A stretch of DNA of 64,000 nt from Roseococcus sp. SYP-B2431 (GTDB lineage: Bacteria > Pseudomonadota > Alphaproteobacteria > Acetobacterales > Acetobacteraceae): NCBI RefSeq assembly GCF_004336745.1, contig NZ_SJXD01000027.1:248001-312000 (forward strand), in the 5' to 3' direction. The notes below the pieces were generated by a model. That model was given only the letters and a program-made list of their open reading frames with translations. It was not told where the DNA came from and did not search any database. This document shows, piece by piece, positions 11 to 6,849 of this stretch. The first letter of the stretch is position 1. Each line of letters begins with the position of its first letter. The position numbers and the translations under genes were made by a program.

Positions 11-1606
11 TCACGATTTGGAAACACCCCAGAAGAAGGGCAGCGGGCCTTTGACGACGCCGCTGACGTTGCGGCGCCAGGCCTGATAGCCCAGGAAGAA
101 ACCTGTTGGCGCGTAGACCACGTTTTCGATGGCCTCGCTGTTGATCTTGTCCATCGCCGCCTTCTCCGCGGTCTCGTTGGGCGCCTCGAACCATTCGGTC
201 ACCCCCTGCTCCACCGACGGGACGTTCGGCCAGCCGAACCAGGCGCCGTCGCCATTGGCGCGGACCGCGTTGTAGGCGGCGGGATTTACGCAATCCGCGC
301 CGGCGTGCCAGCTGTGGAACATGCTCCAGCCGCCCTGATTCGGCGGGTTCTTCATGGCGCGGCGCTGGCCCGTGGTGCCCCAGTCGGTCGCGACGAAGTC
401 CACATTCATGCCCATGCGCTTCAGCAGGTCGGCCGTCACGTCGCCCATGGCCTTGGTGATCGGCTGATCCTGTGCCACGACGCAGACCACCGGCTCGTTG
501 CGGTAGCCGCCCTCCTGGAGCAGGCGCTTCGCCAGGTCCATGTTGCGCGGGCCCTTCAGGATGTCCCCGCCCGCCTCGGTGTAGCCGGGCGTGCCGGGCG
601 TGAAGAAGCCGGGCAGCGCCTTCCAGAGATTGTTGTCGTCGCCCACCAGGGCGCGCATGTAGTCCTCTTGGCTCATCGCGGCGAGAACGGCCTGGCGGAT
701 TTTCTGCGAGTTGAACGGCGGGTGCAGGTGGTTCATCCGGAAGGAGCCGATATTGCCCAGCGGATCGGCGATGTCGACCGCGATGTTGCGGTTGCGGCGC
801 AGCACCGGGATGAGGTCGGTGATGGGATTCTCCCACCAATCGACCTCGCCATTCTGCAGCGCGGCCGAGGCCGTCGCCGGATCGGGCATGACGGTCCATT
901 CGAGGCGGTCGACCATGATGCGCTTGCCGCCGGCGAGCCAGCTCGCGGGCTCGTTGCGCGGCACGTATTGGTCGAACTTCTGGAAGACCGCCTTCGCCCC
1001 CGGCACCCATTCGTTGCGCACGAAGCGCATCGGGCCCGAGCCGATGTATTCCGTGATCTGCGTGAAGGGATCGGTGCGCGCGATGCGCTCCGGCATGATG
1101 AAGAGGATGGGCGTGTTGGTCTTGGCCAGCGCGTAGATCAGCTTGGGAAAGCGCGACTTCAGCACCCAGCGGAAGCTGCGGTCGTCCAACGCGACCAGCT
1201 CCTGCTGGATGGCGCGGATCATCTGGCCCATGGGGTCGCGCGGCATCCAGCGGGTGATGGAGGCGACGACGTCCTTCGCGAGCACCGGCTCGCCGTCATG
1301 GAACCTCAGCCCCTCGCGAAGCTTGAAGGTCCAGGTGAGGCCGTCCGACGAGACGGTGTGGCCCTCCACCATCTGCGGCTGCGGCTCGAGCTTGTCGTTC
1401 ACGCCGTAGAGCGTGTCCCATACGGCCGCCGAGGCGTTGCGCACGACGTATTGGGTGCCCCAGATCGGGTCGAAGTTCGCAAGGTTCGCCTGCGGCACGA
1501 AGCGCAGGGTGCGCGCGGCGGCCCCCTGGCTCAGCGCCGGACCGGACAGGCCCGCACTCGCCGCAGCGGCCGCGACGCCGGCCTGTAAAAAGCTTCTACG
1601 CTCCAT
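11..1606 (-). CDS. ABC transporter substrate-binding protein, family 5 (SBP copy 1)
   Basis: This is a 531-residue periplasmic binding protein of the SBP_bac_5 (DppA/OppA-like) family, expected to deliver peptides or related solutes to an ABC importer. The N-terminus has a twin-arginine-type signal (ERRSFLQ, residues 2-8) and an Ala-rich core ending in ALSQ. The early block LRFVPQANLANFDPIW and the later GSGPMRF block are shared with the three paralogues upstream. The ATG at 1606 is preferred because GGGAG lies about 9 nt upstream and the signal peptide begins there; a longer in-frame ATG at 1651 would bury it. It is the last of four tandem paralogues in transcription order. Bases 255-392 are duplicated exactly inside the third paralogue. 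The solute is unknown, and any permease genes would lie beyond the left edge. Confidence 0.9.
   Translation of the reverse strand: MERRSFLQAGVAAAAASAGLSGPALSQGAAARTLRFVPQANLANFDPIWGTQYVVRNASAAVWDTLYGVNDKLEPQPQMVEGHTVSSDGLTWTFKLREGLRFHDGEPVLAKDVVASITRWMPRDPMGQMIRAIQQELVALDDRSFRWVLKSRFPKLIYALAKTNTPILFIMPERIARTDPFTQITEYIGSGPMRFVRNEWVPGAKAVFQKFDQYVPRNEPASWLAGGKRIMVDRLEWTVMPDPATASAALQNGEVDWWENPITDLIPVLRRNRNIAVDIADPLGNIGSFRMNHLHPPFNSQKIRQAVLAAMSQEDYMRALVGDDNNLWKALPGFFTPGTPGYTEAGGDILKGPRNMDLAKRLLQEGGYRNEPVVCVVAQDQPITKAMGDVTADLLKRMGMNVDFVATDWGTTGQRRAMKNPPNQGGWSMFHSWHAGADCVNPAAYNAVRANGDGAWFGWPNVPSVEQGVTEWFEAPNETAEKAAMDKINSEAIENVVYAPTGFFLGYQAWRRNVSGVVKGPLPFFWGVSKS
255..392. repeat. 138-bp donor segment, identical copy at 3577-3714
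   Basis: The 138 bases here are identical to 3577-3714 and both copies are read in the same coding frame. In this gene the segment is at home: it continues the alignment with the other paralogues on both sides. It is therefore the likely source of the patch found in SBP copy 3. Confidence 0.95.
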
Positions 1607-1716
1607 CAGCCAATCTCCCGTTCCCCCGGCCTGCCGCCGTGTTGGGCTCAACCTGCACCACCGTTGGGCAACACGCCAGCGCTACCGCGCTGCAGCATGG
1701 TCCCGGCGTGCTGCGT

Positions 1717-1740: not shown

Positions 1741-3327
1741 TCAGGCGCGCCGCACGCCCCAGAAGAGCGAGGAACCGCCCCGCACCACGCCCGTGATGCT
1801 GCGCCGCCAGGCCTGCGGCGGCCGCACCAGGCCGAGCGGGATGAAGGGCACCTCGTCCCAGGCCACGCGCTGGATCTCCTGGGCGACGCGCTGCGCCGCC
1901 GCCTGGTCGGGCGCGTCGAACCATTGCTCGCGCAGCGCCTCCAGCCGCGGCATGGTCGGCCAGCCGGACCAGGCCTGCGCGCCGTTGCCGCGCAGCGGCT
2001 GGTGGCTGCCGGGCACCGAGACGTCGAGCCCTTCCCAGGTCGTGCAGAAGACGCTCCAGCCGCCCTGCTCCACCGGGTTGCGGTTGGTGCGGCGCTGGAT
2101 CTGCGTGCCCCAGTCCATGGCTGGGAAATCGACGTTGAAGCCGACCCGGCGCAGCAGGTCCGCCGCGACTTCCGACAGGTTCTGCAGCACCGGAAGGTCG
2201 GTCGCGGACATCATGACGACCCGCTGGCCGGCATAGGAGGAGGCCCGCAGCGCGGCGCGCGCCGCCTCCAGATCGCGCGGCCCCGAGAGAGCCTCCAGCC
2301 CGGCACCGTTCGCGAGCGGCGTGCCCGGCGTGAAGACGCCCGCCGGCACGACGGAGAGCCCCGCATCCGTGCCGATCGCCGCATCCATGAAGGCGCGCTG
2401 GTCCACGGCCGGCAGCAGCGCGCGCCGCACCGCCACGTCGTTGAAGGGCGGGTGCAGGAAATTGAAGCGCAGCACGCCGAGATTGCCGGCCGGGTTCACC
2501 ACGCCGATCTCGATGTCGCGGTTGCGGCGCAGCAGCGGCAGCAGGTCGGGCAGCGGCGTCTCCCACCAGTCCGCCTCGTTGTTCTGCAGCGCGGCGCCGG
2601 CCGTCGCCGGGTCGGGCATGATGCGCCACTCGACGCGGTCGAAATGCACCGGCTTGGCGCCGGCGAGGAAATCGGTCGGCTCGCTGCGCGGCACATAGCC
2701 CTCGAAGCGCTCGTAGACCGCAACGTCGCCGGGCCGGAAGAGATCGCGGCGGAAGCGGAAGGGTCCGCTGCCCGTGGGGTCGGTGATCTGCGTGAAGGGA
2801 TCGGTCCGCGCCACGCGCTCGGGCATGATAGCGCAGATATTGGCCGACGGCTTGCCCAGCGCCCAGGCGAGGCCGGGCCAGGGCTTCTTCAGCCGGATCC
2901 GGATGGTGCGGTCGTCCGGCGCCGAGACCTCCTCGCCGAGCGCGACGAGCCGGCTGCCCAGCACGTCCCGCTTGGACCAGCGCAGGATGGAGGCCACGCA
3001 GTCGCGGGCGCGCACCGGCTCGTTGTCGTGGAACTTCAGGCCCTCGCGCAGGCTGATGGTCCAGGTCAACCCGTCGACGCCGATCTCGTGCCCTTCCGCC
3101 ATCTGCGGCCGCACCTGATAGTCGGCACCGAGGCCGTAGAGCAGGTCGTAGACCATCAGCCCGTGGTTGCGGACGACGACCGCCGTGCTCCAGACCGGAT
3201 CGATGCTGGCGAGGTTCGCCTGCGGGATGAAGCGCAGCGTGCGCGCGGAGGCCTGAGCCGAGGCGAGGCTGGGCGCGCCGAGCAGCGCCGCCGCGCCGCC
3301 CAGGCTCGCCCTGCGGGAGATGCCCAT
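1741..3327 (-). CDS. ABC transporter substrate-binding protein, family 5 (SBP copy 2)
   Basis: This 528-residue paralogue of the neighbouring binding proteins belongs to the DppA/OppA-like SBP_bac_5 family and should act in the periplasm as the recognition subunit of an ABC importer. It starts with a twin-arginine-like signal (SRRASLG) and a likely cleavage after ASAQ near residue 25. The family block LRFIPQANLASIDPVW follows directly, and the C-terminus ends in the shared pattern ITGVVRGGSSLFWGVRR. The ATG at 3327 lies 5 bp after the stop of SBP copy 3, so the two are probably co-transcribed. The open frame continues upstream to 4476, but that part is an antisense-free shadow of SBP copy 3 and lacks family similarity. 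Its length is normal for the family, unlike copy 3. Confidence 0.9.
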   Translation of the reverse strand: MGISRRASLGGAAALLGAPSLASAQASARTLRFIPQANLASIDPVWSTAVVVRNHGLMVYDLLYGLGADYQVRPQMAEGHEIGVDGLTWTISLREGLKFHDNEPVRARDCVASILRWSKRDVLGSRLVALGEEVSAPDDRTIRIRLKKPWPGLAWALGKPSANICAIMPERVARTDPFTQITDPTGSGPFRFRRDLFRPGDVAVYERFEGYVPRSEPTDFLAGAKPVHFDRVEWRIMPDPATAGAALQNNEADWWETPLPDLLPLLRRNRDIEIGVVNPAGNLGVLRFNFLHPPFNDVAVRRALLPAVDQRAFMDAAIGTDAGLSVVPAGVFTPGTPLANGAGLEALSGPRDLEAARAALRASSYAGQRVVMMSATDLPVLQNLSEVAADLLRRVGFNVDFPAMDWGTQIQRRTNRNPVEQGGWSVFCTTWEGLDVSVPGSHQPLRGNGAQAWSGWPTMPRLEALREQWFDAPDQAAAQRVAQEIQRVAWDEVPFIPLGLVRPPQAWRRSITGVVRGGSSLFWGVRRA

Positions 3328-3332
3328 GGCGC

Positions 3333-5171
3333 TCAGGCCTTTCCGATGTTCCAGAACACCGTCGCGGGCGCCCGGAAGACGCCGGTGAGGTTCCGCCGCC
3401 AGGCGCTCGGCTGCCAGTAGTAGCCGAGCGGCAGGTAGGACATGACCTCCATCGCGCGGCGGTTGAGCTGCTCGGCGATGGCGCGGCTCTCCTGCGGGCC
3501 GTCCGCATTGATCCAGGCGCCGCGCAGCCGCTCGATCTCCGCGTCGTCCGGCCAGCCGAACCAGGCATTGGCGCCGTTGGCGCGGACCGCGTTGTAGGCG
3601 GCGGGATTTACGCAATCCGCGCCGGCGTGCCAGCTGTGGAACATGCTCCAGCCGCCCTGATTCGGCGGGTTCTTCATGGCGCGGCGCTGGCCCGTGGTGC
3701 CCCAGTCGGTCGCGCGGCGGTTGAGCTGCTCGGCGATGGCGCGGCTCTCCTGCGGGCCGTCCGCATTGATCCAGGCGCCGCGCAGCCGCTCGATCTCCGC
3801 GTCGTCCGGCCAGCCGAACCAGGCATTGGCGCCGTTGGCGCGGAGGAACAGGTGGAAGACCGGCATGGTCAGCGACTGGCCGGAGGAGGTGGTGTGGATG
3901 ATGCTCCAGCCGCCCCGCTCCACCGGCTCCTTGCTGGCGCGGCGCTGGATCAGCGTGCCCCAGTCGGCCGAGATGAGCTCCAGGTTCATGCCGAGGCGCT
4001 GCAGCAGATCCGCCGTCACGAGGGAGAGCGCGTTGATCTGCGGATAGTCGCCCGGCGCGATGAGCACGACCTTCTCGTCGCGATAGCCCGCCTCGCGCAG
4101 CGCGGCCTTGGCGCGCTCGAGGTTGTGGATCTTCAGGATCTCGCTGCCGGCCTCGTTGGCGAGCGGCGTGTCGCAGGTGAAGACGCCCTCGCAGACGCCC
4201 CAGCCCCGCGTGTCGGTCCCGGCCACGGCGGTGAGGTAGTCGCGCTGGTCCACCGCCATGGCGACCGCGCGGCGGATCGCGGGATTGTTGAAGGGCGGCT
4301 GTAGCGTGTTGAAGCGCGCGATGCCGTAGGTGCCGTCGAGCAGCCGCTGCTCCACCACGAGCTCGCGCGAGCGGCGCATGACCGGCAGGAGGTCGTGCAG
4401 CGGATATTCCCAGTAATCCTGCTCGCCCTGGGTCATGGCGGCGGCGCTGGTGGCCGGATCGGAGATCACCGTCCATTCCACGCGGTCGATGCGCGGCGCG
4501 CGGCCGCCGGCCAGGCCGTCCACCGCCTCCTGCCGGGGCACGTAGCCGTCATGCTTCGCCCAGACCGCCTTCTGGCCGGGGTTCCACTCATTCGCCACGA
4601 AGCGGAAGGGACCGCTGCCGATGGCCTCGCGGATCTGGGTGAAGGCGTCGGTGCTGGCGATGCGCTCGGGCATGACGAAGCAGGGGAACTGCGTCTGGCC
4701 GAGCGCCTGGAGCAGCAGCGGGACAGGGCGATGCAGGCGGAAGCGGAAGCGGCGGTCGTCCATCGCCTCCACCTCGGCGACGCTCGGCTGCAGCACCTGC
4801 ATGAAGGGATCGCGCCGGGCCCAGCGCCTGATCGAGGCGACGGCATCCTTCGAGGTCACCTTCTGGCCGTCGTGGAAGACGAGGCCCTCGCGCAGGGTGA
4901 AGGTGAGCGTGAGGCGGTCGTCCGAGAGCGACCAGCCCTCCGCCATCTGCGGCCTGATCTCGCCCTGGGCGTTCTGGGCGCAGATCTGGTCGAAGACCAT
5001 GAAGGCGTTGTTGCGCGTGACGACGGCCGTGGTCCACACCGGATCGAGGCTGGTGAGGTTGGCCTGGGGGATGACGCGCAGCACGCGCGCGGCGCCGCCC
5101 TGGGCGCCCGCCACCCTGGGGGCGGCCACGCCCGCCGCCGTTGCCGCCATGACGCTGCGCCTATGGATCAT
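3333..5171 (-). CDS. ABC transporter substrate-binding protein, family 5 (SBP copy 3), with chimeric 86-residue insertion
   Basis: This is a family-5 solute-binding protein of 612 residues, about 86 longer than its three neighbours (526-531). The signal peptide begins MIHRRS, and the ATG at 5171 has GAGGAAG just upstream. The extra length is a 258-bp in-frame insertion near the C-terminus. The block from ANAWFGWPDDAEIERL to EQLNRRA occurs twice, and between the copies sits a stretch (TDWGTTGQRRAMKNPPNQGG onward) identical to SBP copy 1. Removing 258 bp would restore a 526-residue protein. The insert adds a second C-terminal-lobe fragment in a region that packs in one lobe of the fold, so the protein may not fold or bind normally. 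The nucleotide identity is perfect, which means a very recent event or an assembly error. Confidence 0.85.
   Translation of the reverse strand: MIHRRSVMAATAAGVAAPRVAGAQGGAARVLRVIPQANLTSLDPVWTTAVVTRNNAFMVFDQICAQNAQGEIRPQMAEGWSLSDDRLTLTFTLREGLVFHDGQKVTSKDAVASIRRWARRDPFMQVLQPSVAEVEAMDDRRFRFRLHRPVPLLLQALGQTQFPCFVMPERIASTDAFTQIREAIGSGPFRFVANEWNPGQKAVWAKHDGYVPRQEAVDGLAGGRAPRIDRVEWTVISDPATSAAAMTQGEQDYWEYPLHDLLPVMRRSRELVVEQRLLDGTYGIARFNTLQPPFNNPAIRRAVAMAVDQRDYLTAVAGTDTRGWGVCEGVFTCDTPLANEAGSEILKIHNLERAKAALREAGYRDEKVVLIAPGDYPQINALSLVTADLLQRLGMNLELISADWGTLIQRRASKEPVERGGWSIIHTTSSGQSLTMPVFHLFLRANGANAWFGWPDDAEIERLRGAWINADGPQESRAIAEQLNRRATDWGTTGQRRAMKNPPNQGGWSMFHSWHAGADCVNPAAYNAVRANGANAWFGWPDDAEIERLRGAWINADGPQESRAIAEQLNRRAMEVMSYLPLGYYWQPSAWRRNLTGVFRAPATVFWNIGKA
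3452..3586. repeat. 135-bp direct repeat, copy A (within SBP copy 3)
   Basis: This segment is identical to 3710-3844, offset by 258 bp. It encodes the ANAWFGWPDDAEIERL...EQLNRRA part of the binding protein. Its right end overlaps, by the 10 bases TTGGCGCGGA (3577-3586), the start of the patch copied from SBP copy 1. Confidence 0.95.
3577..3714. repeat. 138-bp patch identical to 255-392
   Basis: This block lies between the two 135-bp direct repeats and matches SBP copy 1 without a mismatch. It shares TTGGCGCGGA with repeat A on one side (3577-3586) and TCGCG with repeat B on the other (3710-3714). Such short shared sequences at both junctions are what template switching, or a mis-resolved assembly graph, would leave. 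Confidence 0.95.
3710..3844. repeat. 135-bp direct repeat, copy B (within SBP copy 3)
   Basis: Second identical copy of 3452-3586. Beyond 3844 the sequence continues as ordinary SBP coding sequence. Confidence 0.95.
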
Positions 5172-5193
5172 CGCTTCCTCCAAAGAAGATCGA

Positions 5194-5206
5194 GGGGCTT
5201 CGCCCC
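5194..5206 (-). terminator. GC hairpin with T-rich flank upstream of SBP copy 3
   Basis: GGGGC (5194-5198) pairs with GCCCC (5202-5206) across a 3-base loop. On the minus strand it is followed by TCGATCTTCTTT. It lies between the stop of SBP copy 4 and the start of SBP copy 3, so it could terminate or attenuate transcription between them. The stem is short. Confidence 0.35.
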
Positions 5207-5248
5207 CCGAACCCACCAAGAAACTCAGCTTCCTGGATTCGTCCGTCA

Positions 5249-5268
5249 GGGGGGCAGCGGAGCCCCCC
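5249..5268 (-). terminator. GC-rich hairpin immediately after SBP copy 4
   Basis: GGGGGGC (5249-5255) pairs with GCCCCCC (5262-5268) across a 6-base loop. It begins directly after the stop codon of SBP copy 4 (5269-5271). No T-run follows on the minus strand, so it may stabilise the mRNA end rather than terminate. Confidence 0.4.
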
Positions 5269-6849
5269 TCAACTCCTCCGGATGCCCCAGAACAGCGCCA
5301 GCCCGGACACCCGATCCGCCAGGTTGGTGCGCAGCGCGGTCAGCGACTTGTACGCACCGACCGGGATATAGGGCAGCTCGTCCAGCGCCACGGTCTGCAT
5401 CTCGCGCGTGATGCGCTGCTCGGTGGCGAGGTCCGGCGCCTCGAACCAGCTGTCGCGCAGCTCCTCGAGCCTTGGGATGGTCGGCCAGCCGAACCAGGCG
5501 TCGTTGCCGTTGCCGCGCAGCGGGAAATGCGCCGCCGGGTTCACGAAATCGAAGGAGGAGAAGGCGGTGAAGAGCATGCTCCACCCGCCCCGGTCCACCG
5601 GCTCGCGCGAGGTGCGGCGCTGCACGGTCGTGCCCCAGTCGGTCAGCACGATGTCGGCGTTGAAGCCGAGGCGCCGCACGAGGTCCGCGCCCACCTGGGT
5701 CATGGCCGAGGGCGCCAGGATGTCGGTCGGGCCGATCAGGCGCATGGGCTGGTTGGTGTAGCCCGCGGCGCGCATGAGCTCCTTCGCGCGGTCGATGCTG
5801 CGCGGGCCGTTCAGCACGGACATGCCGGCGTCCGAGGCCAGCGGCGTGCCCGGCGTGAACATGCCGCAGGTGGCGACATAGTTCTGCGGCTCGTCGCCGA
5901 CCACCGCCGCCATGAAATCCGCCTGGCTGATCGCCGGCAGCATCGCCTGGCGCAGCTTCTTCTCGTTGAAGGGCGGGTGCAGGTGGTTGAAGCGCAGGAT
6001 TCCGGTGAGCGGCAGGGGATCGATCGCCTCGATCTTGATGGCCCGGTTGCGGCGCAGCAGCTGCTGGATCTCCGGCGGCGGCTGCTCGTACCAGTCGATC
6101 TCGCCTGTCTGCAGCGCGGCGGCCGAGGTCGCCGCGTCGGTGATGATGTTCCACTCCACGCGGTCGAAATGCGCGACCTTCGGCCCGGCCGTGAGGCTCG
6201 GCGCCCCGCTGGAGACGGGGACGTAGTCGGCGAAGCGCGTATAGACGACGCGGCTGCCGGAGTTGAACTCGTCCGCCTTGAAGACGAAGGGACCGCTGCC
6301 GACCGTCTCGCGGATCTGGGTGAAGGGATCGGTGCGCGCCAGCCGCTCCGGCATCACGAAGGCCGGGCTGTTGGAGACCTGCGCCAGCGCCATGAAGAGC
6401 AGCGGGAAGGGCCGCTTGAGCCGGAAGCGCAGGCGCTTGTCGTCCACCACCTCGACCGCGTCGGTCACGGTCGCGAGCTTCTGGCCCATGGGGTTACGGC
6501 GCATCCAGCGGGTGAGGCTCGGCACCACGTCCTGCGCGCGCACCGGCTCGCCGTCGTGGAACTTCAGCCCGTCGCGCAATGTGATGACGACGATCTTGCC
6601 GCCATCCTCCAGCACGTGCCCGGACGCCATCTGCGGCGCGGTCTGGAAATCCGCATTCACGCCATAGAGCGTGTCGTAGACCATGTGGCCGTGGTTGCGG
6701 GTGACGTTCGCCGTGGTCCAGATCGGGTCGAGGCTGGTGAGGTTCGCCTGCGGGACGAATTTGAGCACGCGGTTCTGGGCCGGCTGCGCCAGGGCGGGGC
6801 CCGCCAGGGTGGCGGCGGCGGCGCCGGCGAGGAGGTCACGGCGTTTCAT
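5269..6849 (-). CDS. ABC transporter substrate-binding protein, family 5 (SBP copy 4)
   Basis: This 526-residue protein is the first gene in transcription order of the four tandem SBP_bac_5 paralogues. It has a twin-arginine-like signal (KRRDLLAG, residues 2-9) with probable cleavage after ALAQ near residue 22. The core shows the family blocks LKFVPQANLTSLDPIW and TVGSGPFVF. The C-terminus ends GLALFWGIRRS, matching the FWG-R pattern of its neighbours. Like the others it should bind a peptide-like or opine-like solute in the periplasm. It is separated from SBP copy 3 by about 97 bp containing two hairpins, so expression of the array may be graded. The divergence between copies, apart from the patch in copy 3, argues for old duplication with different ligands; that is inference. 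Confidence 0.9.
   Translation of the reverse strand: MKRRDLLAGAAAATLAGPALAQPAQNRVLKFVPQANLTSLDPIWTTANVTRNHGHMVYDTLYGVNADFQTAPQMASGHVLEDGGKIVVITLRDGLKFHDGEPVRAQDVVPSLTRWMRRNPMGQKLATVTDAVEVVDDKRLRFRLKRPFPLLFMALAQVSNSPAFVMPERLARTDPFTQIRETVGSGPFVFKADEFNSGSRVVYTRFADYVPVSSGAPSLTAGPKVAHFDRVEWNIITDAATSAAALQTGEIDWYEQPPPEIQQLLRRNRAIKIEAIDPLPLTGILRFNHLHPPFNEKKLRQAMLPAISQADFMAAVVGDEPQNYVATCGMFTPGTPLASDAGMSVLNGPRSIDRAKELMRAAGYTNQPMRLIGPTDILAPSAMTQVGADLVRRLGFNADIVLTDWGTTVQRRTSREPVDRGGWSMLFTAFSSFDFVNPAAHFPLRGNGNDAWFGWPTIPRLEELRDSWFEAPDLATEQRITREMQTVALDELPYIPVGAYKSLTALRTNLADRVSGLALFWGIRRS

Follow-up and report, generated by a model that had tools for sequence, protein, structure and literature searches.

The window, that is the whole 64-kb stretch of DNA analysed here (G000:C27:248001-312000), belongs to the genome of Roseococcus sp. 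SYP-B2431, a 4.71-Mb draft in 31 contigs, and begins with a head-to-tail array of four genes for solute-binding proteins (SBPs) of the PF00496 family, all on the minus strand:

SBP1: 11..1651, minus strand, family-5 solute-binding protein, donor (ORF and PF00496 profile)
SBP2: 1741..3327, minus strand, family-5 solute-binding protein, no part in the event (ORF)
SBP3: 3333..5219, minus strand, family-5 solute-binding protein, holds the insertion (ORF, PF00496, solved relative)
SBP4: 5269..6849, minus strand, family-5 solute-binding protein, no part in the event (ORF and PF00496 profile)

As called, SBP3 starts at a TTG and encodes 628 aa; the ATG at 5171 (612 aa) is the more likely start. The protein scores 211.8 bits against the Pfam profile of PF00496 SBP_bac_5 (cut-off 32.4; 2.1e-62), and its closest solved relative is 8vdx_A (1.4e-122). 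Beyond the window, 3' of the SBP array, lie one binding-protein-dependent permease gene and two oligopeptide/dipeptide-type ATPase genes (L121:7048-7989, 5088-6125 and 4022-5074, all on the minus strand). The locus is an ordinary peptide-type ABC cluster in which the set of binding proteins has been expanded. Its nearest named relative is found in Roseococcus pinisoli XZZS9, whose SBP3 is 89% identical. Two MAG contigs labelled Asaia bogorensis (L055, L065) carry an SBP type 74-76% identical to the Roseococcus-group protein, and their species label may be doubtful.

SBP3 carries a net 258 extra bp, or 86 codons (residues 504-589 in the 628-aa frame), built from the following elements:

Net insertion of 258 bp: 3452..3709, minus strand, one of several equivalent placements, ambiguous within 3452-3844 owing to the 135-bp repeat
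Repeat copy A (downstream in gene direction): 3452..3586, minus strand, 135 bp, encodes GANAWFGWPDDAEIERLRGAWINADGPQESRAIAEQLNRRA
Repeat copy A' (upstream in gene direction): 3710..3844, minus strand, 135 bp
SBP1-derived patch: 3577..3714, minus strand, 138 bp including the junction overlaps, encodes TDWGTTGQRRAMKNPPNQGGWSMFHSWHAGADCVNPAAYNAVRAN
Donor tract in SBP1: 255..392, minus strand, 138 bp
Junction 1 overlap TCGCG (5 bp): 3710..3714, minus strand, SBP3 '..LNRRA' codons joined to SBP1 'ATDWG' codons
Junction 2 overlap TTGGCGCGGA (10 bp): 3577..3586, minus strand, homologous 'RAN' codons of SBP1 and SBP3

The sequences crossing the two joints are TCGGTCGCGCGGCGG and CGTTGGCGCGGACCGCG. The earlier note on this DNA had described these 258 extra bases, the direct repeat, the SBP1 match, the overlaps of 10 and 5 bases and the open frame, and all of its coordinates were reproduced. 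The two repeat copies are identical at 135/135 positions and the patch matches SBP1 at 138/138, both matches being maximal, while the minus-strand ORF 3333-5219 reads through the insertion without a stop. In gene direction, the blocks of SBP3 run ...LFLRAN, GANAWFGWPDDAEIERLRGAWINADGPQESRAIAEQLNRRA, TDWGTTGQRRAMKNPPNQGGWSMFHSWHAGADCVNPAAYNAVRAN, GANAWFGWPDDAEIERLRGAWINADGPQESRAIAEQLNRRA, MEVMSYLPLG..., the TDWGTTGQRRAMKNPPNQGGWSMFHSWHAGADCVNPAAYNAVRAN block being that of SBP1, whose own ORF is still intact. The 86 additional residues follow the order of the family's homologous block: 44 residues running from 'DWGT' to 'RAN' come first, then 42 running from 'GAN' through 'NRRA' to one residue beyond. 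One 86-aa block has thus been duplicated in tandem and in colinear order, the added copy taking its first 44 aa from SBP1.

These identities stand out sharply from the background of the array. Elsewhere the identity among the four SBP genes is only ~60%, and their longest exact match in register is 23 bp; outside the patch SBP1 and SBP3 agree at 59.9% of codon-aligned positions, with in-register exact runs of at most 18 bp. Identities of 135 and 138 bp are therefore far beyond chance, the 138-bp match has to stem from a new copy, and conserved paralogy can be rejected as their cause in favour of ectopic copying. The two pairs are also the only exact repeats of at least 30 bp in the 64-kb window.

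The earlier note had proposed comparing the locus in related strains; here it was compared with orthologues from named genomes. All 80 orthologues of SBP3 extend across the site, and none has more than 0-2 extra residues there in place of the 86, so that an ancient or shared insertion is rejected, and the same SBP4-3-2-1 gene order is found in R. pinisoli with the insert absent from the syntenic SBP3; the empty site is thus ancestral. In the search of relatives, matches to SBP3 orthologues begin at query base 378 at the least and those to the 5' part stop at ~254, leaving the insert uncovered, and the insert itself is matched only by SBP1-type genes. The direction of copying follows from the R. 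pinisoli SBP1, which has an 88.4%-identical version of the 138-bp donor tract at the syntenic place. On these comparisons we take the insert to have been gained by SBP3, with SBP1 as donor, within the Roseococcus sp. SYP-B2431 lineage.

The copies also carry information on age. No differences separate the insert from its own SBP1 (0/138) or the two repeat copies from each other (0/135), that is none over the 273 duplicated bp, whereas between the two species the SBP1 tract differs at 16/138 positions and the 135-bp block at 17/131, with R. pinisoli SBP3 87.9% identical over the gene. Synonymous divergence between the species amounts to a dS of 0.42 (SBP3) and 0.52 (SBP1), and the dN/dS of 0.14-0.15 indicates that both genes were under purifying selection. 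By the rule of three, zero changes at ~67 synonymous sites bound the dS of the copy below ~0.045 (95%). If real, the insertion would therefore be very recent, falling roughly within the last tenth of the time since the split from R. pinisoli.

Events of this kind do not recur in the material that we scanned. In 1.58 of the 4.71 Mb, searched in both orientations, eight exact repeats of at least 50 bp were found, the two longest being the 135- and 138-bp SBP tracts, and no further mosaics were found in that portion of the assembly. Three other perfect repeats were considered as mosaics and rejected as simple tandem repeats with stops in their frames. One of them (G000:C12:221823-222057; L179:1823-2057) is a near-perfect tandem array with a 138-bp unit and a 97-bp exact core; it directly precedes a conserved reading frame (MNYRHAYHAGNFADCMKHAL..) and looks like an intergenic tandem repeat. 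The others (G000:C27:58077-58216, L111:18077-18216; G000:C1:286376-286503, L142:6376-6503) are short arrays of 59- and 54-bp units, respectively, which share similar words in opposite orientation and are perhaps one dispersed intergenic element of the genus. Comparable 60-72-bp arrays are present in three of the related loci (L064, L076, L091).

Across the 80 related loci (1.28 Mb), exact repeats between paralogues reach at most 48 bp, so that a mosaic hotspot in the SBP family is rejected and such insertions are not a habit of the SBP cluster; the sole longer repeat in those loci is a 59-bp short-spaced tandem repeat. Among the matches listed, a plasmid search returned only SBPs at ~65% identity. 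Single relatives have exact 40-48-bp matches between SBP paralogues (L082:1461/11191, L053:6012/7589, L083:2809/4402), which exceed the 16-23 bp seen among the paralogues of the window and are possibly small conversion tracts or just conserved motifs.

At the protein level, the insertion point lies in the C-terminal lobe, where the last long helix ends and before the last strands. The AlphaFold model of SBP3 with the insert has high confidence for the rest of the binding-protein fold and a pLDDT of 25-49 for residues 477-556 (611-aa numbering), a value that is also expected where insert columns lack support from relatives and that is therefore weak evidence. The insert-free R. pinisoli orthologue is predicted confidently throughout (pLDDT 87.9), save for the signal region. 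In the model, the core could be completed by either copy of the helix, with the remainder extruded. The insertion probably impairs SBP3 or, at best, adds a disordered extrusion that the protein tolerates, and the loss of SBP3 may be cheap given the three sister SBPs in the cluster. The earlier suggestion of a live example of domain shuffling is not borne out: no functional domain was exchanged, part of the C-terminal lobe was duplicated, the insert is without a predicted fold and no relative shows anything similar. A functional domain insertion was rejected on the low pLDDT, with little alignment support in those columns, there is no sign of retention of the insert among the 80 orthologues, and ongoing domain shuffling finds no support in the 80 related loci or in the SBP cluster of SYP-B2431.

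How the insert arose is best approached through its two junctions, which are unlike each other. Junction 1 is non-homologous, joining positions that lie 86 codons apart in the alignment, and has 5 bp of microhomology; an overlap of at least 5 bases is expected in 1.1% of random SBP3/SBP1 joins and in 1.9% of in-frame ones (P 0.011-0.019), so that it is above chance. Junction 2 falls at homologous codons on the edge of a homeologous block: to one side of it SBP1 and SBP3 agree at 40/50 positions, a count that takes in the 10-base overlap, and to the other side at 8/30. Together with the intact template at SBP1 255-392, these features point to a single recent template-switch event in the SYP-B2431 lineage, guided by microhomology and homeology, as the best explanation and a probable one. 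A 3' end copying SBP3 would have come off its template once it had reached the last of the 'LNRRA' codons, re-primed on SBP1, 3.3 kb off, via the 5-base microhomology TCGCG, copied ~130 bases and then rejoined SBP3 where the homologous 'RAN' codons lie, with their 10-base identity at the edge of the homeologous stretch. The return point would lie 135 bp before the departure point, so that these 135 bp were copied twice. The reverse polarity, with entry at the homeologous site and exit by microhomology, would fit the sequence equally.

In E. coli, joints that show microhomology and carry inserts of nearby sequence have been documented, and template switching explains them (PMC3161906, PMC2621351); microhomology junctions and complex events are on record in that species as well (PMC3161906). 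The place of the return relative to the original position, in front or behind, determines whether the outcome is a deletion or a duplication (PMC2621351). A microhomology jump followed by a return through homeology, with 135 bp copied again, is thus what template-switch models describe (PMC2621351, PMC3161906). Absence of MutS or RecA was rejected as a cause, since genes of both families are present in the genome, and both strands form stable folds at the joints, as expected in GC-rich DNA.

Two other biological routes have to be weighed against template switching. The exact colinearity of the insert with the homologous 86-codon block of SBP3 (44 + 42 codons) is what a tandem self-duplication of that block would give; SBP1 would then have converted the first half of the duplicate. 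We regard this two-step origin as very unlikely: the conversion tract would have to stop exactly at the duplication joint, ~60% identity between SBP1 and SBP3 is below the usual reach of RecA-dependent conversion, and the genome has a MutS-family gene. Moreover, the TCGCG overlap at that joint is present in SBP1 (GTCGCGAC) and absent from the homologous site of SBP3 (CTCGGCCG), which favours a direct jump to SBP1. Less credible still, to the point of being a faint prospect, is the capture of an SBP1 fragment, from the cell itself or from lysed siblings, by Ku/LigD end joining or by homology-facilitated illegitimate recombination, with homeology at one end and microhomology at the other. A Ku gene in the genome (G000:C12:294310-294840; L228) makes end joining a possible repair route, and one homeologous plus one microhomologous junction is reportedly the signature of such illegitimate recombination in transformable bacteria. 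However, to duplicate the 135 bp of SBP3, two sister molecules with overlapping ends would be needed, something that end joining alone does not supply, and the anchor here (10 bp exact, 40/50 homeologous) is short compared with what published cases are said to show.

A separate question is whether the allele exists at all. An artefact of assembly or library, in which SBP3 was linked to SBP1 and then to SBP3 again in chimeric molecules or reads (amplification jumping) and the assembler or gap filler kept that path, is in our view unlikely, although several observations would suit it: the assembly is a draft in 31 contigs, the insert has zero drift and is unique to SYP-B2431 among 80 relatives, and short-read graphs tangle at repeats of ~135-138 bp, the size found here. 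Against this, joins with overlaps as short as 5 and 10 bp cannot arise from a k-mer graph itself, so that both joints must have been in reads, and two independent chimeric joins would be required within 140 bp, one of them non-homologous, unlike typical PCR chimeras. The 1.58 Mb scanned hold no other such chimera and, as the 135- and 138-bp tracts are the longest exact repeats there, the assembly is not generally chimeric. The reading frame also remains open, an outcome that has a 1/3 chance in any case, and the low pLDDT is as compatible with an insert that has no function or does not exist as with a young one. The earlier proposal of two template switches between tandem paralogues therefore stands as the best fit, given the ancestral empty site, the SBP1 donor and a TCGCG found only in SBP1, with the unlikely artefact, which that note had also named, beside it. 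We infer that the insertion is present in the living genome, arose in a single event and was made by copying instead of end joining.

Should the template-switch allele be real, it would be expected to be unstable, its 135-bp repeats lying 258 bp apart and open to RecA-dependent or slippage deletion that restores the exact empty site; frequent reversion is predicted because the repeat is perfect, and expansion by 86-aa units is possible. It is highly improbable that the allele is both real and a reversible switch, in which the repeat flips SBP3 between a chimeric form with 86 more residues and the normal form, or expands it by 86-residue units, the population thus holding several binding-protein variants drawn from a paralogue cassette.

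The SBP3 event is a fresh instance of an already known mutational kind and of modest interest. If real, it is an unusually legible and undecayed short template switch between paralogues in a bacterial coding gene, for which donor, both joints and ancestral state are all known; small events of this type are easily misread as divergence or conversion, and the locus would serve as a natural test of how quickly direct repeats of 135 bp at a distance of 258 bp revert. Should it prove an artefact, the lesson would be that plausible in-frame chimeric genes can occur in draft assemblies.

Several known systems resemble parts of this event. As in ectopic gene conversion, the tract comes from a neighbouring paralogue and the donor is unchanged; however, conversion replaces sequence at allelic positions, whereas SBP3 kept its own sequence and gained 258 bp, with one of the joints non-homologous and linking positions 86 codons apart. 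Work on Acinetobacter baylyi is said to describe homology-facilitated and short-patch double illegitimate recombination, with short templated patches and microhomology at one or both ends. The SBP3 patch is likewise short, templated and joined by microhomology, but those events reportedly replace or integrate DNA at the target, whereas in SBP3 the target is duplicated around the patch. Like an intragenic in-frame tandem duplication, the protein shows one 86-residue block doubled and, unlike it, the first 44 residues of the block come from a ~60%-identical paralogue. The closest known system is microhomology-mediated template switching (long-distance template switch/FoSTeS/MMBIR; E. coli Lac-system amplification), compared with which the SBP3 event is far smaller (~0.3 kb, not many kb), draws on a paralogue as donor with one of its two joints at homeologous positions, and lies in frame inside a coding gene.
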